Source: Bacteroidota bacterium (GTDB taxonomy: Bacteria; Bacteroidota; Bacteroidia; Chitinophagales; Chitinophagaceae). From it: DNA of 46,337 bases. The notes under the pieces are model-generated. The model did no database searches, was not told where the DNA came from, and saw nothing but the letters and a program-made list of their open reading frames with translations. The DNA lies in the NCBI GenBank assembly GCA_024640225.1, contig JAHEFK010000011.1, positions 1 to 46,337 of the forward strand, written 5' to 3'. A program made the translations under genes and the position numbers. How positions within the stretch are numbered: position 1 is the stretch's first letter; every line of letters starts with the position of its first letter. Positions 6,923-38,448 of the stretch are shown piece after piece.

Positions 6923-8326
6923 ATGAGACAACCAATTTTAAAATTCATTTTTACGAGCGGCTTATTGTATTCTTTTTGCTTACCTACAAGTTACGCTCAA
7001 TCAGAAAACGACTTCAATAATAGTCGTAAAAGCGCAACACCCATCGATTTTCAATTTGCTGCCGAAACGGCCACCAAAGCAGTAGTGCACGTAAAGGTAA
7101 GTACCTCTGCTAAAACGGTTTATTCACAGAGCCCTTTCGGGAATGGCTTTTTCGAACAGTTTTTTGGTCCACAGCAATATATTTTACCTCCTCAATCTGG
7201 ATCCGGCTCAGGCGTAATTATTGATGCTGATGGGCACATCGTTACCAATTATCATGTAATTGCGAATGCCGACAAAATAACCGTAACCTTAAGCGATGGC
7301 ACAAGCAAACAAGCTAAATTAATAGGCACCGATATGACAACGGATTTAGCCGTATTAAAAGTGGAGGAAAACAATTTATCCTATCTAAAATTTAGCAATA
7401 GCGACCAAGTAAAATTAGGACAATGGGTATTAGCCATTGGCTATCCACTCAATTTAGATGTTACTGTAACAGCGGGCATCGTAAGTGCTAAAAGTAGAAA
7501 TATCGGCATACATAAAAACCAACAAAATGCTATAGAGTCCTTTATACAAACCGATGCAGCGGTAAACCCAGGTAATAGCGGTGGTGCCTTAGTAAATAGT
7601 AATGGTGATTTAGTAGGTATCAATGCAGCTATTAGTTCGCCTACCGGTTCGTATGCTGGCTATTCTTACGCAATACCTTCCAATATCGTAAAAAAAGTAA
7701 GTGGCGATATCATTCAATATGGCAAAGTGCAAAGAGCTTTCTTAGGCATCAATCCAAAAGATATCAAAACAGCAACAGAGGAAGAAATTAAAAAATATCA
7801 TTTAGACGATATTCAAGGTGTAGCCATTGTGGGTGTAAGCAAAAGCGGCGCAGCAGAACAAGCAGGCTTAAGAATTGGTGATATTATTCAAGCTGTCAAT
7901 CAAGTTAAGGTACATTCGGTACCTTCTTTATTAGAACAAATAGCGCGTTACCACCCTAAAGACGAAGTAGAGATTAGCTATTGGAGAGACGGACAAAGCA
8001 ATACTAGTTTGGTGACGCTAAAAAGCAACGCTGAAAACAGTAGTCAACAAGCCCTATTTGGTGCCACATACCGTTTCTTAACCGTTCAAGAAAAAAAGCA
8101 ATATGGTATTAATAATGGCATACTGATCACCGATAAAGGAACAGGGCCTTTAGCGCAACAAAGCAATATCCAAAAAGGGTTTATTATTACTACCATCAAT
8201 GATATGGCTATTGCCAATGAGGAGCAGATTGCAACAGCTATAAACAATAAGAATTTCATACAAATAGGAGGTTTTTACCCAGGTCAAAGAGGCAATTATT
8301 ATTACAGCTTCCAAATCAATGAATAA
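6923..8326 (+). CDS. Periplasmic HtrA/Deg-type serine protease with PDZ domain
   Basis: 467 residues. A signal peptide ends near residue 25 (S-Y-A-Q). The trypsin-like domain has the full triad: H111 in T-N-Y-H-V-I, D141 in T-T-D-L-A-V-L-K-V and S219 in N-P-G-N-S-G-G-A-L-V. A PDZ domain covers about 270-365. The remaining ~95 residues (I-L-I-T-D-K-G-x-G-P-L-A, then Q-K-G-F-I-I-T-T-I-N) look like a second, divergent PDZ. Residues 66-92 form a Phe/Gln-rich LA-like loop. It would degrade or refold damaged envelope proteins. Whether it is the DegP, DegQ or DegS equivalent is not decidable. It has its own promoter and is monocistronic. Confidence 0.93.
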   Translation: MRQPILKFIFTSGLLYSFCLPTSYAQSENDFNNSRKSATPIDFQFAAETATKAVVHVKVSTSAKTVYSQSPFGNGFFEQFFGPQQYILPPQSGSGSGVIIDADGHIVTNYHVIANADKITVTLSDGTSKQAKLIGTDMTTDLAVLKVEENNLSYLKFSNSDQVKLGQWVLAIGYPLNLDVTVTAGIVSAKSRNIGIHKNQQNAIESFIQTDAAVNPGNSGGALVNSNGDLVGINAAISSPTGSYAGYSYAIPSNIVKKVSGDIIQYGKVQRAFLGINPKDIKTATEEEIKKYHLDDIQGVAIVGVSKSGAAEQAGLRIGDIIQAVNQVKVHSVPSLLEQIARYHPKDEVEISYWRDGQSNTSLVTLKSNAENSSQQALFGATYRFLTVQEKKQYGINNGILITDKGTGPLAQQSNIQKGFIITTINDMAIANEEQIATAINNKNFIQIGGFYPGQRGNYYYSFQINE

Positions 8327-8387
8327 AAGAACGCAATCAATAAGGATTAATTGAACAAAAAGCTTTCAATTAATAAACATTATATAT

Positions 8388-8395
8388 TATCTTTG
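8388..8395 (+). promoter_or_regulatory. Bacteroidota -7 promoter element for sucC
   Basis: TATCTTTG matches TAnnTTTG exactly and ends 16 bases before the sucC ATG. A TTTC at 8363-8366, 21 bases upstream, may be a degenerate -33 box. Confidence 0.6.
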
Positions 8396-8411
8396 CCCAA
8401 ATTTTTAACAC

Positions 8412-9626
8412 ATGAATCTGCACGAATATCAAGCAAAAGAACTTTTAAAAAGATATAATGTACCTACCCAAGAAGGTATTGCTGTTGAAACCGTAGAAGA
8501 TGCTATCAAAGCATACGAACAAACAGCAACAGCTACCAACACTAAATTTGTAGTGATGAAAGCTCAAATTCATGCAGGTGGTCGTGGTAAAGGTACCATG
8601 AGAGAAGTGCCAGAACAACATGGTGTAAAAGTGGTAAAAAGCGCTGAAGAAGCAGGTACCGTTGCTAAAAACATTTTAGGCAATACCCTAGTTACGATCC
8701 AAACCGGTGAGGCTGGAAAAGTAGTAAGCAAATTATTGATAGCTCAAGACATGTATTATGATGGACCGAGCGATCGTAAAGAATTTTATTTATCTATCTT
8801 ATTAGATCGTGCTAAGAAACAAAATGTAATCATGTATAGCACCGAAGGTGGTATGGATATTGAAGAAGTAGCACATCATACTCCAGAGAAAATCCATAAA
8901 GAGTGGATTGCTCCAGGCATGAGCTTACAAGCGTTTCAAGCTAGAAACATTGCGTTCAATCTTGGATTGAGCGGCGATGCGTTTAAAAACATGGTGAAGT
9001 TCGTTACTAATTTATACAATGCTTATGTTGGATTAGATTGTTCTATGTTAGAGATCAATCCATTGTTTAAATCAGCTGACGATAAAATCATTGCGGTTGA
9101 CTGTAAAATGAATATTGATGACAATGCCATGATGCGTCATAAAGACATTGAAGCATTGAGAGATACCAGCGAAGAAGATCCTACCGAAGTAGAAGCTGGT
9201 GCATTCAACTTAAACTATGTAAAATTAGATGGCAATGTAGGTTGTATGGTAAATGGTGCAGGTTTGGCAATGGCTACCATGGATATGATTAAATTAGCTG
9301 GCGGTGAGCCTGCTAACTTCTTGGACGTAGGTGGTACAGCTAATGCGCAAACAGTAGAAGCAGGTTTTAGAATCATCATGAAAGATCCTAATGTAAAAGC
9401 AATCTTAATCAATATTTTTGGTGGTATCGTTCGTTGCGACCGTGTTGCGGCTGGTGTTATTGAAGCTTATAACAACTTAGGCAATATCAATATTCCTATT
9501 ATTGTTCGCTTACAAGGTACTAATGCTGAAGTAGCTAAAGAATTGATTGTAAACTCTGGATTGAAAGTACAATCAGCTATCTTATTAAGCGAAGCAGCTA
9601 GCTTAGTACAAGCAGCAATTAAATAA
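8412..9626 (+). CDS. sucC: Succinyl-CoA synthetase (ADP-forming) beta subunit
   Basis: 404 residues. N-terminal ATP-grasp domain: M-N-L-H-E-Y-Q-A-K-E at the start, K-A-Q-I-H-A-G-G-R-G-K-G near 50-61, and E-I-N-P-L near 218. The C-terminal ligase domain has N-G-A-G-L-A-M-A-T-M-D and G-G-x-A-N-A, then N-I-F-G-G-I-V-R-C-D. It makes ATP from succinyl-CoA in the TCA cycle together with the alpha subunit SucD, which carries the phosphohistidine. sucD is not adjacent; sucC stands alone between its own promoter and a terminator. Confidence 0.96.
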   Translation: MNLHEYQAKELLKRYNVPTQEGIAVETVEDAIKAYEQTATATNTKFVVMKAQIHAGGRGKGTMREVPEQHGVKVVKSAEEAGTVAKNILGNTLVTIQTGEAGKVVSKLLIAQDMYYDGPSDRKEFYLSILLDRAKKQNVIMYSTEGGMDIEEVAHHTPEKIHKEWIAPGMSLQAFQARNIAFNLGLSGDAFKNMVKFVTNLYNAYVGLDCSMLEINPLFKSADDKIIAVDCKMNIDDNAMMRHKDIEALRDTSEEDPTEVEAGAFNLNYVKLDGNVGCMVNGAGLAMATMDMIKLAGGEPANFLDVGGTANAQTVEAGFRIIMKDPNVKAILINIFGGIVRCDRVAAGVIEAYNNLGNINIPIIVRLQGTNAEVAKELIVNSGLKVQSAILLSEAASLVQAAIK

Positions 9627-9644
9627 ACTGCAAAACTTTCATAT

Positions 9645-9677
9645 AAAAAAGGGATTGACTAATGTCAATCCCTTTTT
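9645..9677 (+). terminator. Intrinsic terminator after sucC
   Basis: A 9-bp perfect stem, GGGATTGAC/GTCAATCCC with a TAAT loop, is preceded by six A and followed by five T. Confidence 0.9.
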
Positions 9678-9692
9678 GTTTGGTGCAAAAAT

Positions 9693-9722
9693 AAAAGCCC
9701 AATGAAAATTCATTGGGCTTTT
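9693..9722 (-). terminator. Terminator closing the glycan operon
   Basis: AAAAGCCCAATG and CATTGGGCTTTT form a 12-bp stem around six bases. It sits 20 bases past the stop of the last glycan-operon gene, back to back with the sucC terminator. Confidence 0.85.
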
Positions 9723-9742
9723 TATTAAAACATAAACGGTTA

Positions 9743-11038
9743 TTATTCAACCACTACACCTTTAAAGGTATAATCTTGACCTTGAATGCGTGCTCTAATA
9801 ATATAGATTTTATTAGCTTCTACTTCTACAGGAATAGCTGTATTGGTAATTGCATTGTTTGTAGTAAATACGTTACGACCAATAATATCAAAAATCTGAA
9901 TTGATTCGATATTCATTTTATCGTTAGTAACTAATTTCACTTGGTTTTTTGCTAAGCTCATGCCTACTTTTTCAGTTGCGACACCAGGAATATTGGTTGT
10001 ACTGCAAGCAACACAACTTTTCCAAGTAGCACATAAAGTAGTATCATTGCTTTTTATTTTAGTAAGACGATTAGTGTATTGTGCATTACCGTTGGTACAA
10101 GTCCAAGTTGAATTTAAAACTTCTTTAGTACCAGTACCGTTTACAAACAAATATTCGATATCTTGATTTGAAGCCATTGGAATAGTAACCTCATATGTAT
10201 TGTTTCCTACAGATGTCATTTGATTTCCAGGAAAATTAGACCAGTTGCTCCAGCTACCAAAAACATAAACAGGAGTAGAATCTGGGCTCTTCACTTGGAA
10301 TTTCACATTGATATTAGAAGGCACTACAGAATTACATGAATCACATTTTGCCCAACGACGACAGATAGTTTGGTTCGTAGTTGTTACCGTCAACATACGG
10401 TTAGTATATTGTCCATTACCATTAGTACAAGACCAAGCTGGGTTTAAAACTTCTTTAGTACCCGCTGCACCGTTTACGAATAAATATTCATAGGTAGCAT
10501 TTGCTGGCATGGTTACAGTAGCTGCATAGATACCACCACCTTGAGAAGTCATTGCAGTACCAGGGAAATTACCCCATCCGCTCCAGCTACCAAATACATA
10601 AACAGGAGTAGAATCAGGATTTTGCACTTTAAAGGTTATAGATACATTTCCAGCAGGTGCTGTACAAGAAGTACACGTTTTCCACGTAGCACAATATGTA
10701 GTATCATTTGCTACCGTAATTGTTCTATTGGTATATTGCGCATTACCATTCGTGCATGGCATTGTAGGCGTAATGCCTTCTTTAACGAAAGCAGCAGTTC
10801 CATTAACAAAGAAGAATTCGTGTGCACCCGCGGTCATAGGAATAGTTACCGAATAGTAACCGCCACCAATAGATGCCATAGCATTACCAGGATAATTACC
10901 CCAATTACTCCAATCTCCAAATGCAAATACTTGCGATGAATCTGGACTTTTAACCACAAAGGTTACATTTTTGTTTTGAGCAAATCCTGCTGCGAACATA
11001 AATGTTGCAAGCAAGCTCATGAGTAGTTGTTTTTTCAT
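9743..11038 (-). CDS. Secreted protein with three Trp-rich Cys-containing repeats and a T9SS sorting domain
   Basis: 431 residues, last gene of the glycan operon. A signal peptide ends near A20-Q21. Three tandem repeats follow at about 24-125, 131-235 and 243-345. Each begins V/I-x-F-x-V-x-S/N-P-D-S, has F-G-x-W-S-x-W, then E-x-x-F-V-N-G, C-T-N-G-N-x-Q-Y-T-N-R, and ends C-x5-C-x2-C. The first half recalls CBM48/AMPK-type beta-sandwich glycan-binding modules; the Cys-containing second half is not one I recognise. Residues ~350-431 have the look of a type A T9SS C-terminal domain (I-E-S-I-Q-I-F-D-I-I-G-R ... V-V-V-E). Probably a cell-surface glycan-binding protein without catalytic activity. 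It begins 31 bases after the GH16 stop. Confidence 0.8.
   Translation of the reverse strand: MKKQLLMSLLATFMFAAGFAQNKNVTFVVKSPDSSQVFAFGDWSNWGNYPGNAMASIGGGYYSVTIPMTAGAHEFFFVNGTAAFVKEGITPTMPCTNGNAQYTNRTITVANDTTYCATWKTCTSCTAPAGNVSITFKVQNPDSTPVYVFGSWSGWGNFPGTAMTSQGGGIYAATVTMPANATYEYLFVNGAAGTKEVLNPAWSCTNGNGQYTNRMLTVTTTNQTICRRWAKCDSCNSVVPSNINVKFQVKSPDSTPVYVFGSWSNWSNFPGNQMTSVGNNTYEVTIPMASNQDIEYLFVNGTGTKEVLNSTWTCTNGNAQYTNRLTKIKSNDTTLCATWKSCVACSTTNIPGVATEKVGMSLAKNQVKLVTNDKMNIESIQIFDIIGRNVFTTNNAITNTAIPVEVEANKIYIIRARIQGQDYTFKGVVVE
10004..10969 (-). repeat. Three tandem coding repeats of about 310 bases
   Basis: This stretch encodes the three ~103-residue modules of the secreted protein. Repeats 2 and 3 are also close at DNA level: 36 bases at 10247-10282 and 10580-10615 differ at one position, which points to a recent internal duplication. 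Cysteines recur at residues 95/116/122/125, 204/226/232/235 and 314/336/342/345. Confidence 0.85.
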
Positions 11039-11069
11039 AGTTGTTTTGTTTTGTTGTTAATAAAAAAAA

Positions 11070-11888
11070 TTAAAGTGGTGTATAATTAAAAGATTTAATG
11101 ATGACTTCTACTTCTTTATTATTTGAAGGCCCCAAACCGTTCAATAACCAGAGATTCATTCTTGCATGGGTACTATCTTCAGGTGCAGGAATAATAACTG
11201 GATCAGAGGTTCTATTACCCTCAATTTTCCTTCGAGTGATATTGTTCTTGTCATAACTCCAAGTAGCAATTTTTGCACCTGAGGTACCTACCCCTTCGTA
11301 ACTATCCCAACGGATAATATCTGGTGACCAGTAGAAAACATGCGTACACACATTTTTCAATTTACTCACTTGCATATTTACATGTCGTGTACGCTCTGGG
11401 TAAGGCGCTGGATTGCTAAACCATACCGGCTGTACGCTATACGTTAATAAAAAAGAATCGGCAGCATTATTCCATTTAGAAAACTCCACATCCACTTCAC
11501 TATTAGCTTGTGTCTGAAAACTATAATCATTCCAAGTAAACAAACCCAATACTACGCGCTCGTTCAAAGTTGTTAAATCACTTGCTGTAGTAAAGGTATA
11601 GGTACCATAACCCATAGTACGTGCAGATATCAACTCACTGCAATACCATTTATTATTGACATTGGTAATTTTTAAATGCAACATACCTAAAGCATCCACC
11701 CAAATATTATTAGTAGTAGACGCAAATTTGTTGGGACCAGGGCCAACCTGTACTTCATTACTATTTTTAAAGTTCCAGTAATATCCCGAAAATAAAATAT
11801 CACCCGTTTCCTTTTTTGGCAAAGGATCGGATTGTTTACATCCTACTACAGCTATAACTAAAAGGAAAAAAATAATTCTATTCCACAT
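11070..11888 (-). CDS. GH16-like lipoprotein (putative beta-glucanase)
   Basis: 272 residues. The lipobox ends at C17 (V-V-G-C), so this is a lipoprotein of the envelope, perhaps surface-exposed. The central S-E-V-D-V-E-F places E131, D133 and E135 in the GH16 catalytic pattern E-x-D-x-E, where the first Glu is the nucleophile and the last the acid/base. The upstream G-x-Y-x-F-T and downstream R-x-W-D-S-Y-E-G segments also fit a GH16 jelly roll. GH16 enzymes mostly cut beta-1,3- or mixed-linkage glucans and galactans. It starts 11 bases inside the GH3 gene. The family is read from a short motif, so substrate is open. Confidence 0.75.
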   Translation of the reverse strand: MWNRIIFFLLVIAVVGCKQSDPLPKKETGDILFSGYYWNFKNSNEVQVGPGPNKFASTTNNIWVDALGMLHLKITNVNNKWYCSELISARTMGYGTYTFTTASDLTTLNERVVLGLFTWNDYSFQTQANSEVDVEFSKWNNAADSFLLTYSVQPVWFSNPAPYPERTRHVNMQVSKLKNVCTHVFYWSPDIIRWDSYEGVGTSGAKIATWSYDKNNITRRKIEGNRTSDPVIIPAPEDSTHARMNLWLLNGLGPSNNKEVEVIIKSFNYTPL

Positions 11889-14127
11889 AAATTAATTTCT
11901 TTTGTTGGTCAATTAATAATTCAATCCATCCCGGCTCTGTAATGCGTTCGTTGTTTTTATTGATAAACGAGAAATTAGTTGCATCCAATTCAAACTGTAC
12001 TGTTTGCTCTTCATTTGGTGCTAATTCTATTTTCTGGAAAGCAGCTAATTTTTTCACACTAGGAGTTATAGAAGCTACTAAATCGTTATAATACAATTGC
12101 ACTACTTCTGCCCCTTTTACAGCACCTACATTCTTAACTTTACACATTAATAATAGTTTTTCATTTTTTCTTAAGGTGTCGTTAGTTAAAGTTAATGTAT
12201 CAAATTTAAATTGTGTATAAGACAATCCAAAACCAAAATCAAAACTTGGTTGATAGGCATTCATGGAAAAATCAATATCTAAATCCTCAGTTCTTTTTCT
12301 GTCGTAGTGCACAAGGTCATTACTTGCTGCAGGATATGTAAACGGCAATTTGCCGCTTGGATTTACTTTCCCCAAAAGGCAATCTGCTATAGCTATTCCG
12401 CCTTCATCGCCTGGCAGATAAGCATAAACAATTGCAGCTACCAAAGGTATTATAGGCGTTAATATTCTTGGTCTATTAAAACAGCAAACTACTATTATTG
12501 GTTTACCCGTTTTAGCTAATTGTTTTACCAATTGTAATTGAGCTTCGGGTAAGTCTAAACTTTTTATATTGCCCGGCACCTCGGTGCATGGCAACTCGCC
12601 TAAACAAACCACAATCTTATCTACGCTTGTAGCTTTTTTTAATAACTGCTCTTCTTCTTGCATGGCATCTAAACTAGCGCCCTTCACATAGGTAATTGAA
12701 GATCCCCATTGTTGTTGTAATGCTTGGAGTATAGTCTTTTTACCAGGTGTATTCGTTGTAGTATCTACTCCTTGCCAAGTATGTGTCCATGCACCGTTTA
12801 ATAAGTTTAATGAATGAGCAGCCGGTCCGCAAACCAACAATTTTTCATTGCTATCATTTAAAGGCAAAATACTTTCTTTATTCTTTAATAATGTTATACT
12901 CTCACAAGCCGTTCGATAGCTGATGCTTGCGTATGCTGCTGATCCAAAATTTGGATAATCTTTACTCGCATACATCGTTTCAGCGAACAAGCCCAAATCT
13001 CTTTTCAATCTCAAAATTCTTCTCACAGAAAGATCTAATCGCGATTCAGGAATAGCTCCTTCTTTTACTAATTGTACTAATAAATCACAGAACTGAAAAT
13101 CATTAGGCACCATACTCATATCTATACCTGCCATAATCGCCATTTTTACTGCTTCCTTTTTATTAGCGGCAACTCTATGTAAGTTTTCTAATTTATAAAT
13201 ATCCTCCCAGTCGGTAACGGCAACACCCTCAAATTTTAATTCGTCTCTTAAAAGTGTAGTTAGGATATCATAATTGGCATGAACGGGGGTACCATTAATA
13301 TCACCCGAGTTAATCATAACTGTTTTTGCACCTGTTGCTATTGCCTCTTGGAAGGTAGGCAAAAAATAGGCTCTCATTTCACGCTCTGGCAACCACACCG
13401 GTGTACGATCTTTTCCACTCAAGGAAAAACTATAACCCAAGAAATGTTTCATACAAGCGGCTACTTTATATTTGCTAGATACCGAATCGCCTTGCAAGCC
13501 CCGTATGGCAGCATGAGCCATGGCAGTAGCCAAACAAACATCCTCGCCGTAGGTTTCAAAAAAGCGCGACCATAAGGGTTGTCGGCCTAAATCTAAGACA
13601 GGAGAAAAATTCCAAGGAATACCTGTTGCTCTTGTTTCATAAGCAGCTACAGCATTTGCCTTTTCTACCAACAACGGATTCCAGGTAGCCGCTTGTCCTA
13701 TTTGTTGTGGGAATAAGGTTGCACCTTTAGTATAGTTCGCTCCATGAATAGCATCAATTCCATATAAAATTGGAATTTTCAAACGGGATAATTTTTTATT
13801 CTCTTTATGTATCGTTTGCAATAGCGTATTCCAGTCGGCGCGACTGATTGTACCACTACCACAACCCACATTTAAAATAGAACCGATTTTATATTTTGTA
13901 ATGGCTTCACGAAGTTTTACAAGATTAATTTGTTGCGGTTGTTTCAAGGCGCAAATTCCACCTTCTGCAATTACCCCTAAATCAATCTGCGTCATTTGCC
14001 CAACTTTTTCTTCAACACTCATCTTGGCCATCAAAGAATCCAACGCCGCATCACTCATAGATTGAGCAACAACACCTTGCGTAATAAAAGCAAAAAAAGT
14101 TAAAAAGAATAGTACTTTACTTTTCAT
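11878..14127 (-). CDS. Glycoside hydrolase family 3 (beta-glucosidase type)
   Basis: 749 residues. A signal peptide ends near residue 22 (V-V-A-Q). The N-terminal (alpha/beta)8 domain has K-V-G-Q-M-T-Q, Y-G-I-D-A-I-H-G, K-H-F-L-G-Y and the nucleophile D306 in V-A-V-T-D-W-E-D. The C-terminal GH3 domain (C-G-P-A-A-H ... G-D-E-G-G-x-A-I-A-D) runs from about 420, followed by a fibronectin-III-like domain at about 650-749. It would release glucose or another monosaccharide from the non-reducing end of oligosaccharides in the periplasm. Overlaps its neighbours by 11 bases on both sides. Confidence 0.93.
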   Translation of the reverse strand: MKSKVLFFLTFFAFITQGVVAQSMSDAALDSLMAKMSVEEKVGQMTQIDLGVIAEGGICALKQPQQINLVKLREAITKYKIGSILNVGCGSGTISRADWNTLLQTIHKENKKLSRLKIPILYGIDAIHGANYTKGATLFPQQIGQAATWNPLLVEKANAVAAYETRATGIPWNFSPVLDLGRQPLWSRFFETYGEDVCLATAMAHAAIRGLQGDSVSSKYKVAACMKHFLGYSFSLSGKDRTPVWLPEREMRAYFLPTFQEAIATGAKTVMINSGDINGTPVHANYDILTTLLRDELKFEGVAVTDWEDIYKLENLHRVAANKKEAVKMAIMAGIDMSMVPNDFQFCDLLVQLVKEGAIPESRLDLSVRRILRLKRDLGLFAETMYASKDYPNFGSAAYASISYRTACESITLLKNKESILPLNDSNEKLLVCGPAAHSLNLLNGAWTHTWQGVDTTTNTPGKKTILQALQQQWGSSITYVKGASLDAMQEEEQLLKKATSVDKIVVCLGELPCTEVPGNIKSLDLPEAQLQLVKQLAKTGKPIIVVCCFNRPRILTPIIPLVAAIVYAYLPGDEGGIAIADCLLGKVNPSGKLPFTYPAASNDLVHYDRKRTEDLDIDFSMNAYQPSFDFGFGLSYTQFKFDTLTLTNDTLRKNEKLLLMCKVKNVGAVKGAEVVQLYYNDLVASITPSVKKLAAFQKIELAPNEEQTVQFELDATNFSFINKNNERITEPGWIELLIDQQKKLIYVE

Positions 14128-14773
14128 TTCTCACAATTTTAATGGCATCTAAATAAATATCTCCATCTGCTTCTAATTGGATAATTAATTGCTTCACTTT
14201 ACTTACATCTGCATCTTTAGCTTTGAATGGAAATTTACTAAGCGGAATGGTAACGGTAGTCCAAGCGTTATCCGTAAACACGCCTGATGCTAAAGACGCA
14301 TTAAAACCATAATACGTTTGCACACCTGTATAATCTTCCAAGGCAAATGCAACAGGGAAATTTTTAAAGCTTCCTTGCACCGAGCGAACTTTCATTTGAA
14401 TACTAGCTACCTCCACAATTTCAGTAATATCTTTTGCTTGCCAATTATTCCAACCAAATCCAATTCCAATCCAATTACATCCACCAGTTATCTTATCCCA
14501 TTTTACATGTAAAGCTTCTGTGCCTTCGTAAACAATTTTATTTTCTTTACTTAAACTTACACATTGTTTTTCTGGTGATGACCAAACGGTGTTATCGAAA
14601 GTATTAGCATAAATAGCAACTGCTTTAAATCCTAAAATTGCATTCGTATCCTCCATGGGCATCTGATCATATAAAGCCATAGGTTTTAGCTGCACATGCG
14701 CTAACCTCGTAACTTCACAAGATGTAAAGCAACAAAGCAAACAAAAGCCTAGGAAGAATACATTCAATTTCAT
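14117..14773 (-). CDS. Lipoprotein with a carbohydrate-binding-like jelly-roll domain
   Basis: 218 residues. The signal sequence ends at a lipobox cysteine, C19 in F-T-S-C. The rest looks all-beta: W-x-G-I-G-F-G-W-N near 105, F-x-V-A-F-A-L-E near 142, then W-T-T-V-T-I-P-L-S and the end G-D-I-Y-L-D-A-I-K-I. That final pattern is typical of galactose-binding-like carbohydrate modules (CBM-type or CIA30-like). No catalytic motif was seen. It probably holds glycan at the cell envelope for the neighbouring GH3 and GH16 enzymes. Starts directly after the preceding lipoprotein gene. Confidence 0.65.
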   Translation of the reverse strand: MKLNVFFLGFCLLCCFTSCEVTRLAHVQLKPMALYDQMPMEDTNAILGFKAVAIYANTFDNTVWSSPEKQCVSLSKENKIVYEGTEALHVKWDKITGGCNWIGIGFGWNNWQAKDITEIVEVASIQMKVRSVQGSFKNFPVAFALEDYTGVQTYYGFNASLASGVFTDNAWTTVTIPLSKFPFKAKDADVSKVKQLIIQLEADGDIYLDAIKIVRNEK

Positions 14774-15781
14774 CTAAAGTTCTAATGGTGTGGATGTGAA
14801 ACAAATAAAATCGATTTTGCAAGCTGCAGCACCTAGTGCTTTATCCGCTAAATGCAACATAGAAATCTTACCTATTTTATTAGGATTATGAATGCTATTA
14901 CCTTTAGGTGTAACCGGCTGACCATTAACCAGCGCCGTGATATCCGAGTACTTAATGGAAACCAACTTCCAACCGGTCCAAGTTACATCTATATTATAGT
15001 CATACTCATCTTCATTATTAGCATTGAAAACACCATCTGCATTTTCATCCTCTTTGAATTGAAAAAGCACTTTAGACATATTTGTATTTGGCACGCCATA
15101 AACTAAGCAATTAAAGTAAACGGCATCGGGGTTAGCATTTAAATTTAAAGTATTAGCCGATGTTGAATAAGCAGTTGCGGGAAAATCAACCAAACCGATT
15201 AACCAATCCCAGTTTACCGTACCTGCCATATTTAAATAACTATTGCCTTGCACTTTGCTGGTATCCGATTTAATGTTAAAATCCATATTGGCACCTGTTT
15301 GTACAAATTTTACCCACGCCGGATTAAATCCACTTTCAAAATCTGCAATCACTAAGGATGTATTAATGGTACGTGTGTTTTTAATTTTCACAGGCACTTG
15401 AAAGGTATCTGTTACACCATCTATTGTTAGCTTGGCAATACAATTTTCAACCGCGAATAATGGAAAATAGGTGGTAGTTCCATTCCATATGGTAGTAGCG
15501 GCATCGATGCTTTTGCTTTGACCACTAAAAACTTTTTTTGCTTTAGACGTGGTACCTGTTATAGTTATTTTCCAACTCACAATTTTATTAAAGGTTGCAG
15601 AAAAACCAACCGTTGCTCCTGTAGAAAAATCAACTGAGTCTTTATTAGCTTTAAATGTAGAAAGCATTTTAAAGCTACTATACAAATCTTCAATACTTGG
15701 TCCGTCAATGGTGTTTTCCTTTCTACAAGAAAGAATGGTTAAACCCAAAAAGAAACTGATGACAATTAAAATCTTTTTCAT
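14774..15781 (-). CDS. Lipoprotein, probable surface glycan-binding protein
   Basis: 335 residues with lipobox L-S-C at C19 followed by R-K-E-N. Residues ~30-130 look like an Ig/PKD-type domain (V-S-W-K-I-T-I-T-G; W-N-G-T-T-T-Y-F-P). Residues ~140-330 are a beta-sandwich with I-A-D-F-E-S-G near 146, N-M-A-G-T-V-N-W-D-W and the C-terminal K-I-D-F-I-C-F, a layout shared with glycan-binding lipoproteins. By position it takes the place of SusD/SusE, but it is all-beta, unlike helical SusD. It is linked to the upstream barrel by TAATG (stop and start share one base). Confidence 0.6.
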   Translation of the reverse strand: MKKILIVISFFLGLTILSCRKENTIDGPSIEDLYSSFKMLSTFKANKDSVDFSTGATVGFSATFNKIVSWKITITGTTSKAKKVFSGQSKSIDAATTIWNGTTTYFPLFAVENCIAKLTIDGVTDTFQVPVKIKNTRTINTSLVIADFESGFNPAWVKFVQTGANMDFNIKSDTSKVQGNSYLNMAGTVNWDWLIGLVDFPATAYSTSANTLNLNANPDAVYFNCLVYGVPNTNMSKVLFQFKEDENADGVFNANNEDEYDYNIDVTWTGWKLVSIKYSDITALVNGQPVTPKGNSIHNPNKIGKISMLHLADKALGAAACKIDFICFTSTPLEL

Positions 15782-17487
15782 TAAAAGGTCATGTTATAGA
15801 TTAATAAAAATTGTTTCATAGTATAATCAGGCATCACCAATAATTTATCTTGGTAGCTAGCCGATTGATACAAGGCTGTTATATAAGATTTGGCACTGAT
15901 ATTGCATTTCAACCCAAGAGCGGTCATTTGCTGTGCTACATCCATTTTTTGATTCGTAAAATAGTCTACGGTAGTATACAGATTTCTATCCGCTACAAAA
16001 TCATTACCTTTCGCATTGAAGAAAATCATACCGCCTATTAATTGCAGCTTAGGTGCAAATTCATAATTAACGCCTACTTGCCAAGCCAATGATTTTAAAT
16101 CTACTTGCTCAACCGCAATAGCTCCCGTGCGTTTTGTTTGTTGCAATCTACATCCGGTTTGCAATAAGAGTCCTTTTTTAAAGCCAATAAGTTGATGTAA
16201 TTGGAACGTTGTTTGCAATTCAGCTTGTAAAAATTGTTTTAACTGCGTTGTTCCTTGTCCTCTAATTTCAGATAATTTATAGACGCTTGCATTCAGATCC
16301 ATTCCTTTAATGCCTTGATAGGAAGCTTTTGTATAGACGCCTACTCTATTAAAGGTTGCCAAACCGAAAGGCAAAATGGCATTATACATCAAAGAAGGTT
16401 TCATTAAATTTGAGGACACTCCTGTTGTGTAGATTTGTTCGTTCCTAACCAAATCCATGATACTTAATGGTCGGCTCAATTTGTTATTGGCATAGCTCGT
16501 ATAAAAATTGGGAGACGCATTAAAATTCACGTTCATACTTTGCGCGCCAACACTTCTAAAATCTGGACCTACATTTAAATAGGCTATGCTAGCCACCCAT
16601 TTATTAGCTGGCGCAACGAATTGTGCTTGAGCATGTATAAAATAGTCTTTTAAAACAGGCGCTAATGCATCCTTCGAATATTTGGCCACACTATTACCCA
16701 ATTCAATTTTCAGAATACCTAAATTATGTTTGTAGTAAAACTTATTCTCTGCATATAATGTAGTTACGTTATTAGTATAAACATTACTATCTAGTATGGT
16801 ACCTTTAAGATCGAAGGTTGACACCTTATGTAAACCATAACTCAATTTATTATTTTGTTTAATAGCCAAGCTAAATCCGCCCAATAATCGATCGGGTACA
16901 CTAGAAAAATCAGTGGCGCGCAAACGCGTTAAATACGCGTTGACATCTATAGATTCGATATATTTATTAAATGTCAAACCAAAATCTACATTAGCTCCTT
17001 GTTGTCGCCAAGTATTATTGGTATAGAATTTTTCATAGTTTACAATATTTTGCTGCAATTGAAAAATACTTGGAAGCGAATCCATCAATTGCACTCGGTT
17101 ATTGTATAAGGTAAAAGGCGTTTGTTTTAAATTTAAATCACCTAACTGATAACGCAACACATTACCAATAATTCCTTTCAACCATAATTGACGCACATCG
17201 AAACTTACACCTGCACCCCAGAAACCACCGTATTCATTTCGGATACGAAACATACCCATGATTTCAGTTTTGTCATTTGGACGAATATTTACACCCATAT
17301 CTATCAAAGCATAACCGCCAGTGTTACGTTTTAACGTTGTAGTATCTGGCAAACTATCTTGCACATTGATAGCACTGTTCGACATGTAAGATCGTGCACC
17401 GCCAATAAAATCGATTGTTTTCTTTTGCTGTGCAAAAAGCCCAGTAGCAAATGAAAAAATCATAATGATTAATAGAAATGGTTTCAT
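15781..17487 (-). CDS. Outer-membrane beta-barrel protein (glycan operon, second barrel)
   Basis: 568 residues. A signal peptide ends near A19-Q20 (L-F-A-Q). The mature protein is rich in alternating amphipathic strands (for example Y-A-L-I-D-M-G-V-N-I and L-L-L-Q-T-G-C-R-L-Q) and ends N-M-T-F, with the C-terminal Phe expected of BAM-inserted barrels. No TonB box, plug domain or SusC motif was seen. It starts at the base after the upstream barrel gene stops. I do not recognise the family. A porin or transporter for oligosaccharides is a guess from context. Confidence 0.65.
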   Translation of the reverse strand: MKPFLLIIMIFSFATGLFAQQKKTIDFIGGARSYMSNSAINVQDSLPDTTTLKRNTGGYALIDMGVNIRPNDKTEIMGMFRIRNEYGGFWGAGVSFDVRQLWLKGIIGNVLRYQLGDLNLKQTPFTLYNNRVQLMDSLPSIFQLQQNIVNYEKFYTNNTWRQQGANVDFGLTFNKYIESIDVNAYLTRLRATDFSSVPDRLLGGFSLAIKQNNKLSYGLHKVSTFDLKGTILDSNVYTNNVTTLYAENKFYYKHNLGILKIELGNSVAKYSKDALAPVLKDYFIHAQAQFVAPANKWVASIAYLNVGPDFRSVGAQSMNVNFNASPNFYTSYANNKLSRPLSIMDLVRNEQIYTTGVSSNLMKPSLMYNAILPFGLATFNRVGVYTKASYQGIKGMDLNASVYKLSEIRGQGTTQLKQFLQAELQTTFQLHQLIGFKKGLLLQTGCRLQQTKRTGAIAVEQVDLKSLAWQVGVNYEFAPKLQLIGGMIFFNAKGNDFVADRNLYTTVDYFTNQKMDVAQQMTALGLKCNISAKSYITALYQSASYQDKLLVMPDYTMKQFLLIYNMTF

Positions 17488-19392
17488 CTAAAAAAATATT
17501 TTTATTTCTAATGTTGTTTCAAATCCTTTGTAGGCATTTTTACTAAAGCTTGCATCTTTATAATCCATCCATCGCTGACGAATATATAATCCAGCCCCTT
17601 TACTCATTTTAATATCCAAGCCTGTTGCTATACTATAGCCTGTTTGATTTTTAGGTCGCAAAGACACATCATCTGTCTTGGTTTGATAATTGGCAATGAT
17701 GCGCTCAAATCCTAAATAGTTACTCCAAATAATAGTGTTGCTAATTTTCATGTAACCTTCCAACTGATGATAATAGGTTCTCAACAAAGCCTTTTCACTA
17801 AATACGGTAATGGGAGAAAAACTAGTTTGTGCAGAACTGAATTGTCCTAAATAAAAGAAATAACAAGGTTTATTAAAAATACGATGCTGATATTTGGCAT
17901 TCCATTCTATAGCATTGAAATGTTTTTTAAACGTAGGTAATTTAGAGATCGGATCTACATCGGTTAATTCTAAAGTTTCGTAAACCGTTCTATAGATTTT
18001 AGATAAGTTATTATAAGGGCCCACATTACTTGGAAAATCCCAACGCCAAAAATGCGCTAAGGCTAAACTATTGATGGGATGCGAATAGGTTATTTTAGAA
18101 GACAGCGATTGTAATTCACTACTTACACTCCAACCAATGGATGATTTTACTTTACCGATATTAATTTGAGCATTAAGATCAATCCCTTGTCTGTTGTTAG
18201 TAAGCTGTCCTATTGGCATCATACCACTTGCTACAGCAGGCAAAACAGGCTGTACGGAGGAGGCACTAGACATGGCACTCACATCAATAGAGGAATTAAT
18301 AAATATAGCTGAATTATTGATAACGTTTGGACTAATTCTATAGAGATGAATCTCCGTTGGAAATTTAGATACGATATCTCTTGCAATTTTTAATGATAAG
18401 GCTTCTCCCCAAGGATGGTTAGCATCTTGAACAAAATAACGACCCATGCCCAACTCTCCAGAAATAGTATAGGCCCCTAATTTATTTTTAAACTCCAGCG
18501 TAGCCACATTAAATCCAATACGCTCTTTTTGAGAAGAATCTTTAAAGCTTATATTATTAAAGGTATTGAAGCTTATAAAATTCATGCCGTAATCTTTTCG
18601 TAATTTTCCGCCTACCGAATTATTGGGCAATGGTGACAAACCGCCATTCAATTGCGTTTTGCCATACATAAAAGAACCCGACAAGCCATGTGGCATTCTA
18701 GCACCTTCAACAATCAAACCTTGAAATGCTTGTTGTCCCCAACGCTCGTCTTGATTGATTGCACCGGAATTATAAAACGTTGTGTATCGATCTTCAATAT
18801 TTTTAGTATTAGGATCCCACGGGTTGCGTTCAAAAATACTGTATCGATTATAGCCTTTATTAGCTTGAAAGGTCATAGCTGATAAAGCATACCAATTGAT
18901 TCCACCTGCTCTTATATTAAAATCGCCAATGCTACTAGAATAGCTGCCGTACAAACTGATACCTAAATTCAAACCCTTTACATTTTCGGCTTGTCCCATT
19001 CCCGTCATGGGCGACCAAATATATAAGTCGGTACCAAAGGAGGTATTAGGCGCTACACTACCGCTAATGTTCATCATCAATTGCGGAATCTGACTATCAT
19101 CGCCAATAAATAAATTGTTAGGATTGTTTTTATTTACATCGTAAGCTTTGCTCAGTTCGCGATAGTTGCCCACAAATCTATAATATCCATTGATCGAAAA
19201 TTGTTCTAATGCTTCTTTGGCCACTTTAGGAAAATTGCCTACCTGGTCGCTTGCTACTTCATATTTTATTCTCTGAACCAATTCTACTACTTTATTCGAA
19301 TCCATTATTTGTTTGTCCTTTCCTACTTGAGAAAAAGATTGCTCTGTTATCATCAACAAAGCCAATAGCATATATATCAACTGCTTATTCAT
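17488..19392 (-). CDS. Outer-membrane beta-barrel protein (glycan operon, first barrel)
   Basis: About 634 residues from the ATG at 19392; a TTG four codons upstream is possible but deeper in the preceding gene. A signal peptide ends near S-F-S-Q. Residues ~25-65 are charged and helical (V-V-E-L-V-Q-R-I-K-Y-E-V), then F-S-I-N-G-Y-Y-R-F opens a long barrel with many aromatic-ended strands. The C-terminus is L-E-I-K-I-F-F, fitting outer-membrane insertion. No TonB-dependent receptor plug or TonB box was seen. Overlaps the upstream glycosidase by 8 bases. Family not recognised. Confidence 0.65.
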   Translation of the reverse strand: MNKQLIYMLLALLMITEQSFSQVGKDKQIMDSNKVVELVQRIKYEVASDQVGNFPKVAKEALEQFSINGYYRFVGNYRELSKAYDVNKNNPNNLFIGDDSQIPQLMMNISGSVAPNTSFGTDLYIWSPMTGMGQAENVKGLNLGISLYGSYSSSIGDFNIRAGGINWYALSAMTFQANKGYNRYSIFERNPWDPNTKNIEDRYTTFYNSGAINQDERWGQQAFQGLIVEGARMPHGLSGSFMYGKTQLNGGLSPLPNNSVGGKLRKDYGMNFISFNTFNNISFKDSSQKERIGFNVATLEFKNKLGAYTISGELGMGRYFVQDANHPWGEALSLKIARDIVSKFPTEIHLYRISPNVINNSAIFINSSIDVSAMSSASSVQPVLPAVASGMMPIGQLTNNRQGIDLNAQINIGKVKSSIGWSVSSELQSLSSKITYSHPINSLALAHFWRWDFPSNVGPYNNLSKIYRTVYETLELTDVDPISKLPTFKKHFNAIEWNAKYQHRIFNKPCYFFYLGQFSSAQTSFSPITVFSEKALLRTYYHQLEGYMKISNTIIWSNYLGFERIIANYQTKTDDVSLRPKNQTGYSIATGLDIKMSKGAGLYIRQRWMDYKDASFSKNAYKGFETTLEIKIFF

Positions 19393-20746
19393 GGGTGGTG
19401 TCAAACGACGACATATCTTTTTGTTTAAATTGTATAAAGCGAATTTGTTTATCGCCTTCCTTCAACGGATTTACATAAAAAGGAATATTGGCATAGGCTA
19501 CTTTATGATTATAGGTGATCGTAACAAATAAACGATAAGCGCCTTCTCTATTGGGTGCTCTAAAACTGATGGTGGATTTGCTATCATTACTTATGAGTCC
19601 TCTAATCTCTTGCGCCTCTTCTTCTACATCACCACCTGATTTCTTATCATTGCTTTCTGCCAAAATTTTCCATGCATAGGTAAATCCAGGCGATGCTGTT
19701 GTATAAGATACAATGCCTGTTGGCATTTGAGCCATTACGGAAGCTTGTGCTTTTTCAGCAGCCTTTAAATAAATGGAGGCATTAGCCGATTGATTATTGA
19801 TTTGAATAGTAGCAATTGAAGGTGCCGTTGCAGTAGGAAAAGATCCTGTAAAAACATATTCCAATGCATCAATGGGTTCGGTAGGAATATTGTCTTTAGA
19901 AAATAAACCATACCAAGTTTCGGTATATTCTTGTTTCGCCCCCCATAAAAAAGCGTAGGAACCTAAACAGTAGTTTTTGTTGGCTGCAATATAATCTCGA
20001 TAGCGTTGATAATACACTGCTTTCTTTTCTGTACTCGTTTGCTCTATAGCGGCATTCCATTGTGTAGTGGGCGATTCCCAATGGCCATTTGGCCCCCATT
20101 CGGTAATCATATAGGCGCCATTCCATCCGTATGCTTGCACCTTACTTACTGCATGACCAATATCGCCATAGGTATTAACCGATAAGATATCTATACTTGG
20201 GGCTTGTTTTATAATATGTTGCACTACATTAGAATCTAATCCGGCAATAACAGTACTGGTAGGGTGATTGGGATCTACTTGATGGATGTATTGCGCAATA
20301 GCTTCTACAGCATTCCAGCAAGCCGGATTGGTGTATTGCAAATTGAGCTCATTACCTATACCCCATAATAAAAGTGCAGGATGATTTTTGAACTTATCAA
20401 CAATAGATTTGAAATAATTTAACTGCTTAAGTACTTTCTCTTTATTGTCATAATCAAAGCCATGACGCTCGTGTTGTAACCAAAAACCCAACATAACCGT
20501 TAGGCCTTTTTGCTGCGCTTCATCTAGTACTTGCTGAGCTCGCTCTACTCCCCAAGTACGAATCGAATTAGCACCTATTTTAACAGCAATATCCAAATGT
20601 ACATCGCCACCCAAACCTTTTACATAGTATGGTTTGCCGTTTCTATAGAGTTCATAGCCATCCATAGTTTTCTTAAGCGTTGTTTGCGCATAGAGAAAGC
20701 AGGGCATTATAACAGCCAAAATCAATATGAAGAGTAGCTTTTTCAA
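19385..20746 (-). CDS. Clan GH-A TIM-barrel glycosidase (GH2/GH5-like)
   Basis: 453 residues, first gene of the operon. TTG start giving M-K-K and a signal peptide to about A20-Q21. Y-V-K-G-L-G-G and A-N-S-I-R-T-W-G resemble the entry of GH2/GH5 barrels. The acid/base E133 lies in L-L-W-G-I-G-N-E-L and the nucleophile E216 in M-I-T-E-W-G-P, at strands 4 and 7 as in clan GH-A. A beta-sandwich tail (about 310-430) follows. It may cut or transfer beta-glycan chains. No exact GH family number can be given. An ATG-started mini-ORF of five codons overlaps the start out of frame. Confidence 0.8.
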   Translation of the reverse strand: MKKLLFILILAVIMPCFLYAQTTLKKTMDGYELYRNGKPYYVKGLGGDVHLDIAVKIGANSIRTWGVERAQQVLDEAQQKGLTVMLGFWLQHERHGFDYDNKEKVLKQLNYFKSIVDKFKNHPALLLWGIGNELNLQYTNPACWNAVEAIAQYIHQVDPNHPTSTVIAGLDSNVVQHIIKQAPSIDILSVNTYGDIGHAVSKVQAYGWNGAYMITEWGPNGHWESPTTQWNAAIEQTSTEKKAVYYQRYRDYIAANKNYCLGSYAFLWGAKQEYTETWYGLFSKDNIPTEPIDALEYVFTGSFPTATAPSIATIQINNQSANASIYLKAAEKAQASVMAQMPTGIVSYTTASPGFTYAWKILAESNDKKSGGDVEEEAQEIRGLISNDSKSTISFRAPNREGAYRLFVTITYNHKVAYANIPFYVNPLKEGDKQIRFIQFKQKDMSSFDTTHE

Positions 20747-20969: not shown

Positions 20970-21854
20970 CTATAAATAAGCTTTCTTCTTAAACCAACGA
21001 TAAATACCTAAGGTAATCAATAGCATAAGCCCTAAAATAATATAATAACCATTGGTCCATTGCAGCTCCGGCATATGTTCAAAATTCATGCCATAAACAC
21101 CTACTATAAAAGTAAGGGGTAAAAAGAAAGCAGAAAAAACAGTGAGCACTTTCATCACATCATTACTTTTTTGCGCATTGATGGATAAATAAGTATTAAG
21201 AATAGTGTGTGCGTTATCTAATACCTCTTCGTAAACCAATACCAAATTGAGCATAGAATCGTTGATATCGGCCAATGCTGATTTATTGGCTGCACTAACT
21301 TCTACTTGATGCAAAACTAACTGTGTTATTTGCAATAACTTTTTAGTAATTCGAGTTTGTGTTTTTTGGAAATACAAATCAGTCAGCGATATTTTTTTAT
21401 AATCACGCAAGAAGATGGTTTGTTCCATAGCATCAATCTGATCGCTTAATAATTTAGAGGGCTCGCTATACGTATCCACCATTGCTTTTATAATAGCCAA
21501 AAGCAAGGTCTCACAATTAGAATAATTGCTAGATAGTTGCTGTAAAAATGCAAATGGAGTTCTATGTATGGTTATCAGTTTATCATCTTTATAAAAGAAC
21601 GCTATCTTATTAGAAATATCAGATATGCTATTTACTCGATCATTAGGCTGAGCGGTATATGCCCTAAGGATTAAGAAGTTATAATTTGCTTGTTGTTCAT
21701 ATTTAGGCAAATGTCCTACTTCCAGACTATCCAAAATTTGGAAAAGATCCAATTGATATTGGGTAGCAATTTCCTTCAAATCTTCTTGTGTAGGATTACA
21801 GAAATCATACCAGGTAAAGCTAGAAAAGGATTTTATGGTTGAGAATGCCTGCAT
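20970..21854 (-). CDS. corA: CorA family magnesium/cobalt transporter
   Basis: About 294 residues from the ATG at 21854 (a TTG two codons earlier is also in frame). A long soluble N-terminal domain with W-Y-D near residue 15 and helical segments is followed by two C-terminal membrane helices. The first ends in the family signature Y-G-M-N-F; the loop F-E-H-M-P-E-L follows, and the protein ends in basic F-K-K-K. These homopentameric channels take up Mg2+ with the G-M-N motif at the pore mouth. Stands alone between the glycan operon promoter region and a tRNA. Confidence 0.93.
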   Translation of the reverse strand: MQAFSTIKSFSSFTWYDFCNPTQEDLKEIATQYQLDLFQILDSLEVGHLPKYEQQANYNFLILRAYTAQPNDRVNSISDISNKIAFFYKDDKLITIHRTPFAFLQQLSSNYSNCETLLLAIIKAMVDTYSEPSKLLSDQIDAMEQTIFLRDYKKISLTDLYFQKTQTRITKKLLQITQLVLHQVEVSAANKSALADINDSMLNLVLVYEEVLDNAHTILNTYLSINAQKSNDVMKVLTVFSAFFLPLTFIVGVYGMNFEHMPELQWTNGYYIILGLMLLITLGIYRWFKKKAYL

Positions 21855-21887
21855 ATTCAAATGTAAGAAAAATTAAGATAGAGCAAT

Positions 21888-37100: not shown

Positions 37101-38448
37101 CACGGTTTAATAATACGGGGTGACCTTTTAATACATTCTCTAAGATATCCCAAACAACAGCTTCTTTGCGCTCTACTAATTTCTTAGCGCTTTTTACTGT
37201 TTTTACAATACCTCTTTCAATAAGTTTACGAATGATAAATGGTTTGAATAACTCCGCAGCCATGTCTTTAGGTAAACCACACTCATGCAATTTCATTTCC
37301 GGACCTACAACGATAACCGAACGACCAGAGTAGTCGACACGCTTACCTAATAAGTTTTGACGGAAACGACCTTGTTTACCTTTCAATACATCTGATAAAG
37401 ATTTCAATGCACGACCACCTTCTGCTTTTACAGCATTTGATTTACGGCTATTATCAAATAAAGAATCTACCGCTTCTTGCAACATACGTTTTTCATTACG
37501 TAAGATTACTTCCGGCGCTTTAATTTCTATCAAACGTTTCAAACGGTTATTACGGATAATAACACGACGATAAAGATCATTCAAATCAGATGATGCAAAA
37601 CGACCGCCATCTAAAGGAACTAATGGACGTAATTCTGGAGGAATAACTGGTAAATAATGCATTACCATCCACTCCAATTTATTTTCTACACGCTCGTTAG
37701 CTTCACGGAACGATTCTACTACGCTTAAGCGTTTTAACGCTTCTTGTTTACGTTGTTGAGAAGTTTCGTTTGCAGCCGCGTTTCTTAATGCGCTAGATAA
37801 TTTGATAAGATCGATACGAGCAAGCAATTGGTGAATTGCTTCTGCACCCATTTTAGCAATAAATTTATTAGGATCTTCATCCGGTAAATATTGATTTTCT
37901 TTAGAAATGCTATCTAAGATTTCTAAGTACTCATCTTCTGTAAGTAACGCTTGGTGCGTATCTTCAGAATCTTTTAAATTCAATTTTTGACGGATTAAAT
38001 CTTCCGCTTCACCAGCTTGAATTACCGCAAAACGTTCGTAATAAACGATCGTTTCCATTTTTTTGGAACTCATGCCTAATAAGTAACCAATTTTATTGGG
38101 CAAACTTTTGAAATACCAAATGTGCACGATTGGTACTACCAATTTGATATGACCTAAACGCTCACGACGTACTTTTTTCTCTGTAACTTCTACACCACAA
38201 CGATCACATACGATGCCTTTGTAACGGATACGCTTGTACTTACCGCAATAGCATTCGTAATCTTTTACAGGTCCAAATATTTTTTCACAGAAAAGACCAT
38301 CTCTTTCTGGTTTGTATGTACGATAATTAATCGTTTCTGGTTTTAAAACCTCTCCAAAAGAGCGGTTTAAAATAGCATCTGGAGATGCTAAGCTAATCGT
38401 AATTTGATTAAATCCAGCTTTCGGACGGAAATCCTTTTTATTTGCCAT
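34126..38448 (-). CDS. rpoC: RNA polymerase beta' subunit
   Basis: 1440 residues. The N-terminal zinc ribbon has C66-Y-C68 and C81-x2-C84. The catalytic loop N-A-D-F-D-G-D-Q-M is at 482-490 and holds the three Mg2+-binding aspartates D484, D486 and D488. The second zinc site has [12 protein letters not shown]. The bridge-helix and trigger-loop region follows ([16 protein letters not shown]). It ends in an acidic tail (D-D-E-E). It follows rpoB after 107 bases that contain a strong hairpin. Confidence 0.98.

Follow-up and report, generated by a model that had tools for sequence, protein, structure and literature searches.

A chu_1276-type operon without SusC/SusD that carries enzymes of β-1,3-glucan–degrading families in a Bacteroidota genome

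In the SusCD-type polysaccharide utilization locus (PUL), binding lipoproteins, hydrolases, and an outer-membrane barrel are encoded in one operon, and polysaccharide loci of Bacteroidota are recognized by their SusC/SusD genes. In the 1,3GUL of Bacteroides uniformis, glycoside hydrolases (GH) of families 158, 16, and 3 lie in one locus with SusC, SusD, and SGBP-B (PMC7157763). Clusters of carbohydrate-active enzymes without susCD have been given a name other than PUL (PMC10108472). An atypical cellulose PUL, chu_1276–chu_1280, has been described in Cytophaga hutchinsonii. This bacterium needs both chu_1276 and chu_1279 to grow on cellulose, and the effect of losing chu_1277 or chu_1280 is pronounced (PMC12016534). 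With 0.1% glucose, growth of the chu_1276 and chu_1279 mutants is poor, which fits a role in sugar entry. Such genetics speaks to the need for these parts rather than to their function. Here, we analyze eight consecutive minus-strand open reading frames (ORFs) at positions 9743 to 20746 of a 46,337-nt stretch of Bacteroidota DNA (this whole stretch is referred to below as the window). This operon is a variant of a locus type that is known but has drawn little notice, the SusCD-free chu_1276 type, here with β-1,3-glucan enzymes.

The second to fourth genes of the operon encode two barrels, BAR1 and BAR2, and a lipoprotein, LP1. BLASTP matched BAR1 to CHU_1276 (E = 2.9e-56, 25.8% over 601 columns), BAR2 to CHU_1277 (E = 3.5e-70, 30.6% over 563 columns), and LP1 to CHU_1278 (E = 1.5e-22 over 380 columns), and profiles of the BAR1 and BAR2 proteins from recurring cassettes of these genes (see below) gave E values of 2.2e-96 and 7.3e-135, respectively. 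The order BAR1-BAR2-LP1, with each gene directly downstream of the previous one, is that of CHU_1276-1277-1278. As in chu_1276–1280, two barrels are followed by a lipoprotein, a surface-binding lipoprotein (LP2 in the operon), and a glycosidase, with no SusC/SusD in the cluster. Because of this homology, the SusCD-free architecture is not unprecedented. The sequence-only reading of this DNA had called both barrels unfamiliar, which holds for Pfam and NCBIfam, where they have no family, but not for the literature, where CHU_1276 and CHU_1277 are published homologues. The comparison sequences for CHU_1276–1279 come from a single-contig genome that, judging from its sequence, we take to be C. hutchinsonii; in its stretch (L218), the genes for BAR1, BAR2, and LP1 are accompanied by those for a lipoprotein, in which the six residues published for CHU_1279 are all present, and for a GH9 enzyme. 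A search for the CHU_1279 residues in the GH9-type lipoproteins of four other loci (L177, L178, L180, and L182) was superseded once the real CHU_1279 was found; there, the N-domain triplet fitted four of four at an offset of 0 to 1 (background, 15/254 within 25 residues) and the C-domain triplet none of four.

The two systems also differ. The chu_1276–1280 locus has a GH9 endoglucanase, whereas the operon has GH158, GH3, and GH16-like enzymes instead; since GH9 is absent, the operon is a variant of the cellulose PUL rather than the cellulose PUL itself. LP2 (218 amino acids) has no BLASTP match to the 375–amino acid, two-domain CHU_1279 at E ≤ 1, and the operon has an extra protein with carbohydrate-binding module (CBM) repeats. 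The operon shares with the 1,3GUL GH158, GH16, GH3, and an SGBP-B–type lipoprotein, whereas in place of SusC and SusD it has LP1 and a pair of barrels with no homology to SusC, and it lacks an internal regulator where the 1,3GUL has an HTCS. By analogy, BAR1, BAR2, and LP1 would occupy the place of the 1,3GUL SusC/SusD. Like SusCD-type PULs in general, the operon joins binding lipoproteins, hydrolases, and an outer-membrane barrel, but it does so without a plug-bearing TonB transporter and without SusD.

The enzyme assignments point to β-1,3-glucan. In phmmer searches, the product of the first gene matched the GH158 chains 9oro (E = 1.4e-80) and 6pal (E = 1.4e-75), the latter of which we take to be BuGH158. 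Its “NE” motif (N132-E133) and “TEWG” motif (E216) align with 6pal, so that both catalytic glutamates are present; the counterparts in BuGH158 are N136, E137, and E220 (PMC7157763). What had been read as a GH-A glycosidase is GH158. The GH3 protein contains PF00933 (E = 1.3e-69), PF01915 (E = 3.4e-43), and PF14310 (E = 2.7e-17), and its best NCBIfam match is an exo-β-1,3/1,6-glucosidase at E = 1.6e-128, a score far under the equivalog cutoff. The GH16-like lipoprotein matches the β-glucanases 1gbg (E = 1.4e-4) and 3o5s (E = 1.9e-4) weakly by phmmer and has no Pfam match. The last gene had been described as encoding a repeat protein of the type IX secretion system (T9SS). The repeats stand: PF16760 (40.3 of 27.6 bits), PF16738, PF16561, and PF02922 are all over their Pfam cutoffs, and the repeats are CBM48/53-like. 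A T9SS tail is possible but stays under cutoff in every model that matched (PF18962, 15.6 of 27 bits; TIGR04183, 14.8 of 23; NF033708, 28.4 of 40).

In Pfam, none of the eight proteins matched a TonB plug (PF07715), a TonB barrel (PF00593), or SusD at E ≤ 0.1, in agreement with the sequence-only reading, and the ORF listing likewise bears out the tight packing that it described: overlaps of 20, 1, 11, and 11 bases and gaps of 0, 0, and 31 bases. For BAR1, the ATG at 19392 is a more probable start than the listed TTG and would reduce the overlap with the GH158 gene to 8 bases. The layout is not a product of chance since the order recurs in many genomes. A contig scan gave 178 loci, of which the best 80 were kept; the locus counts given here describe these 80, many of which lie on short contigs. 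BAR2 directly follows BAR1 in 79 of 79 loci, LP1 directly follows BAR2 in 68 of 68, and LP2 directly follows LP1 in 63 of 65, while GH158 directly precedes BAR1 in 68 of 77 testable loci. Counted anywhere in the 80 loci, GH158 is present in 72, GH3 in 46, GH16 in 30, and the CBM-repeat protein in 27. The ExDxE motif is found in all 30 complete members of the GH16-like family. Co-conservation is thus very strong for the core GH158-BAR1-BAR2-LP1-LP2. The suggestion that all eight genes act together is upheld for this co-conserved core and is weaker for the last gene, which directly follows GH16 in only 9 loci and is the least conserved member.

We next consider the barrels themselves. BAR1 has no family in Pfam or NCBIfam; BAR2 has none in Pfam and only a nonsignificant NCBIfam match (E = 0.085). 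Neither was matched in PHROGs, and profile searches at E ≤ 10 returned no solved relatives. Weak matches to OMP_b-brl were seen for 2 of 16 BAR1 and 8 of 17 BAR2 homologues, and the TonB barrel model touched none of these 16 and one of these 17 (E = 0.011, not significant). The family profiles of BAR1 and BAR2 did not match the TonB receptors of two loci (L139 and L140) at E ≤ 10. With no Pfam TonB match for the window barrels and with homologues negative and family profiles negative against these receptors, a SusC-like identity was rejected, and the placement of both barrels outside the SusC/TonB-dependent family is supported. Structure prediction with 59 and 56 aligned sequences gave large barrels for both BAR1 (mean pLDDT, 82) and BAR2 (mean pLDDT, 91; 22 strands), and no separate plug domain is seen in either model or detected by Pfam. 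Solved large barrels (ushers, TonB barrels, OprD-type porins, and AlgE) match the models at Z of about 13 to 17. For BAR1, ushers come first (Z = 16.8), followed by the best OprD-type porin (14.8), a SusC-locus chain (14.3), and AlgE (13.9); for BAR2, an usher (16.6) and an OprD-type porin (16.0) are tied. Naming the barrel type by Foldseek/VIA was rejected as not discriminating, and the absence of a family from these lists is not evidence. The TonB receptors among the matches align from residue 134 or later, which is presumably after the plug. Two nearly strand-free stretches have conserved residues, at about 169 to 220 in BAR1 and at 307 to 380 in BAR2, where conservation is mainly at the two ends; our guess is that they could be lumen or gating loops.

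The cassette’s relation to SusCD was assessed at the genome level. The window genome has one SusD (PF07980) match, which lies on a contig (G000:C41) other than that of the operon (C31) and adjoins a TonB receptor, GH97, and GH13, as in a starch-type locus. When 50 cassette genomes were checked (those of 49 of the 80 loci and the window’s own), SusD was matched in 25 (24 over cutoff) and not in the other 25. In 3 of the 24 other SusD-matching cassette genomes, one contig carries both BAR1 and SusD, at distances of about 55 kb (G334), about 55 kb (G355), and 8 kb on one strand (G348). Among these 24 relatives, one thus has a SusCD pair just outside the operon, no farther than 10 kb from BAR1; none was found there in the other 23, although contig ends may hide further neighbors. 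By BLASTP-seed labels, which are weak evidence here, SusC/SusD was within 11 kb of 0 of 161 BAR2s; the SusD of L074, about 11.5 kb from its BAR2, was missed for this reason. In the class as a whole, SusD occurs in 158 of 395 genomes. BAR2 was found in 3 of 78 genomes with three or more SusD matches, in 30 of 80 with one or two, and in 16 of 237 with none; a Fisher P value of 0.007 is not a clean test because the genomes are related. In one small order, BAR2 is present in all 10 genomes examined (26 matches, up to five per genome) and SusD in none of the 10.

Paralogous cassettes retain BAR1-BAR2-LP1 and swap the enzymes. GH9 is found in L177 and L218 (Pfam) and in L178, L180, L182, and L227 (BLASTP label), with GH5 also in L182. 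GH18 is found in L185, L225, and L233 (Pfam), the first of which also has a glucosamine-6-phosphate isomerase–type (NagB) gene. GH97 and GH13 occur together in L181 (Pfam) and L221 (BLASTP label), and GH16/GH3 cassettes without GH158 in L171 to L175 (GH16 by Pfam on L171). No labeled enzyme is near 24 of 161 BAR2s. On a BAR2 tree of 120 rows, the enzyme labels cluster, with two changes for GH9, two for chitin, one for α-glucan, and six for GH16. For six label groups (20 unlabeled rows counted as one), 21 changes were needed compared to a shuffled mean of 43.5, and none of 200 shuffles was as low; enzyme labels are BLASTP matches to seeds, near-copies help the clustering, and the loci compared repeat some genome regions (e.g., L030/L056, L031/L055, and L045/L112). 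L191, labeled “α-glucan,” also has GH158 and was counted as GH158 on the tree.

Together, these data make it probable that the operon is a SusCD-free PUL for β-1,3-glucan, laminarin-type or mixed-linkage, built on the chu_1276–1280 outer-membrane core. They support the proposal of the sequence-only reading that the operon forms a non-SusCD route of uptake or processing for such glucans, with transport as the inferred step. LP2 and LP1 would hold the glucan at the surface, and GH16 and GH158 would cut it to oligosaccharides. The plugless BAR1 and BAR2 together, as a channel pair or a complex, would provide passage through the outer membrane, probably without TonB. GH3 would then trim the oligosaccharides to glucose in the periplasm, and an inner-membrane sugar carrier (MFS or SSF, found beside the cassette in some relatives) would take the glucose in. 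A broader reading falls somewhat short of an even chance: Bacteroidota may have, in parallel with SusCD, a second importer for glycans in general, plugless and TonB independent, with BAR1-BAR2-LP1 as its core; it would have radiated into β-1,3-glucan, cellulose, chitin, and starch paralogues and would replace SusCD altogether in at least one order.

Several observations pull in the opposite direction. The fold matches of the predicted structures single out no sugar porin or other function. Residues 19 to 54 of BAR1 are modeled with very low confidence, so a small plug or a TonB-box–like segment is possible there. The CBMs of the last gene are of starch-binding types by Pfam. GH158-linked BAR2s do not form one clade since their label changes 11 times on the tree. 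In G348 (L074/L140, contig G348:C12), SusC/SusD precede BAR1 by about 8 kb and share its strand, with a genuine plug-bearing receptor and SusD (L140). SusD is found in 33 of 49 BAR2-positive compared to 125 of 346 BAR2-negative genomes of the class (own genome counted), so there is no simple exclusion. A strict replacement of SusCD by the cassette was rejected, as the two coexist. Two lipoprotein-like ORFs and a gene for a PKD/T9SS protein come after the SusC/SusD pair of L074/L140, where both systems stand side by side.

Other explanations have to be weighed against this background. BAR1 and BAR2 might be a surface assembly or export platform that places lipoproteins and glycosidases, with the products entering via general porins. 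Ushers head the fold lists for both models, and a CHU_1277 mutant reportedly has less outer-membrane β-glucosidase. However, the usher lead is small, is a tie with an OprD-type porin for BAR2, and rests on barrel size; the poor growth of the chu_1276 mutant at low glucose is better explained by uptake, and the partial tracking of linked enzymes by BAR2 clades suits a channel in contact with the substrate. We consider such a platform unlikely. Less probable still is that the barrels are degenerate TonB-dependent transporters, in effect a distant SusC, that lack a recognizable plug and are still driven by TonB. TonB barrels have 22 strands, as does the BAR2 model, and BAR1 aligns to residues 211 to 1016 of the long chain of BT1762-1763 (5t3r; Z = 14.3, root mean square deviation of 4.2, 397 aligned). 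The structure prediction for CHU_1276 also retrieved matches to TonB-dependent transporters (PMC12016534). The lack of a Pfam plug, the failure of the family profiles to reach the receptors of L139 and L140, and the near-complete silence of the TonB barrel model argue against this explanation.

It is also conceivable, though we give it very little weight, that the target is starch or another α-glucan and that the β-glucanases are bystanders. The CBM48/53/26 modules of the last gene would suit such a target, but the three enzymes all belong to β-glucanase or β-glucosidase families, and the GH97 and GH13 of this genome sit with its SusD on another contig. One protein of L138 (positions 17009 to 19114; G420) combines a CBM48-like module with GH16 and CBM56 in a single fusion, suggesting that the “starch-type” modules of the last gene may bind β-1,3-glucan. 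The β-1,3-glucan PUL on a chu_1276-type core is therefore the reading we prefer; its genes are listed in Table 1.

Table 1. Genes of the operon and the basis of their assignment.
Product	Position	Strand	Remarks and basis
GH158 β-1,3-glucanase–family enzyme	19385..20746	−	First gene; signal peptide by eye
BAR1, outer-membrane barrel, CHU_1276 homologue	17488..19404	−	BLASTP, model
BAR2, 22-stranded outer-membrane barrel, CHU_1277 homologue	15781..17487	−	BLASTP, model
LP1, lipoprotein, CHU_1278 homologue	14774..15781	−	BLASTP; LSC lipobox by eye
LP2, lipoprotein, surface-glycan-binding-protein type	14117..14773	−	Pfam; TSC lipobox by eye
GH3 β-glucosidase–type enzyme with Fn3-like domain	11878..14127	−	Pfam; signal peptide by eye
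GH16-like lipoprotein, ExDxE motif (EVDVE)	11070..11888	−	phmmer; VGC lipobox by eye
Three CBM48/53-like repeats (by eye) and possible T9SS tail	9743..11038	−	Last gene; Pfam

Upstream of the operon, 223 bases away, lies CorA (20970 to 21860; Pfam), and downstream, on the opposite strand, lies sucC (named by eye). Outside the operon, the window also has very large minus-strand ORFs at 34126 to 38448 (1440 amino acids) and 38556 to 42368 (1270 amino acids). Of the two lipoproteins, LP1 has a CBM11 match under the Pfam cutoff (E = 0.006), and LP2 is just above the cutoffs for CBM30 (31.8 of 27 bits) and SGBP_B_XBD (27.0 of 26.4 bits); against the GH9-type lipoprotein of L180, the LP2 profile gives E values of 0.03 to 0.1. 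A single 971–amino acid ORF in L083 (positions 7978 to 10893) resembles, by eye, an LP2-GH3 fusion, which ties the binding lipoprotein to the β-glucosidase; it is one of the two exceptions to the LP1-LP2 order.

Genes that recur beside the cassette encode a NUDIX-type NrtR/AraR regulator (33 loci), MFS carriers (17), and SSF symporters (9); one example of each was confirmed by Pfam. The SSF carrier gene is directly before BAR1 in five of its nine loci, and a sugar MFS gene takes this position in L114. Genes resembling Entner-Doudoroff enzymes (by eye) in L090, L103, L110, and L119 fit glucose as the product. In L118, L120, and L123 [metagenome-assembled genomes (MAGs) AF_MB37 and K_MB401], the barrel pair is behind an SSF gene, and transcript data may already exist; the names of these MAGs resemble those of a North Sea bloom study (PMC10108472) and are not given in its main text. 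The cassettes of L134 to L137 (G586, G703, G598, and G546) are in genomes outside the window’s class, and in L134 and L135, the genes ahead of BAR1 encode what by eye resembles a LacI-type regulator and a secreted protein that the LP1 profile matches weakly. The contig of L111 (PBNL01000046.1) is recorded under a Euryarchaeota MAG; the BAR2 of this locus nests among Bacteroidota on the tree, and the archaeal assignment is probably a binning error.

With the own genome counted in both sets, 8 of 99 relatives have BAR1 and 14 of 298 genomes of the order have BAR2. In the wider scans, at most three to four candidates per genome were scored, and the counts are therefore lower bounds: BAR2 is present in at least 49 of 395 genomes of the class and in at least 26 of 291 genomes of an order guessed to be Cytophagales, and BAR1 in at least 6 of 395 genomes of the phylum, four of them outside the window’s class (own genome counted for class and phylum). 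Record titles of some cassette MAGs name lakes (Baikal, LacPavin, and ErkenSummer). Neither the wide distribution of the cassette nor its range of enzymes was found in print among open-licence PMC papers (bioRxiv not covered). Surveys based on SusCD would miss or under-read a SusCD-free cassette, including in the lake-titled MAGs. The cassette also provides a large comparison family for work on the route by which cellulose products cross the outer membrane of C. hutchinsonii, and since the likely substrates of the relatives yield soluble oligosaccharides, uptake would be directly measurable in them.

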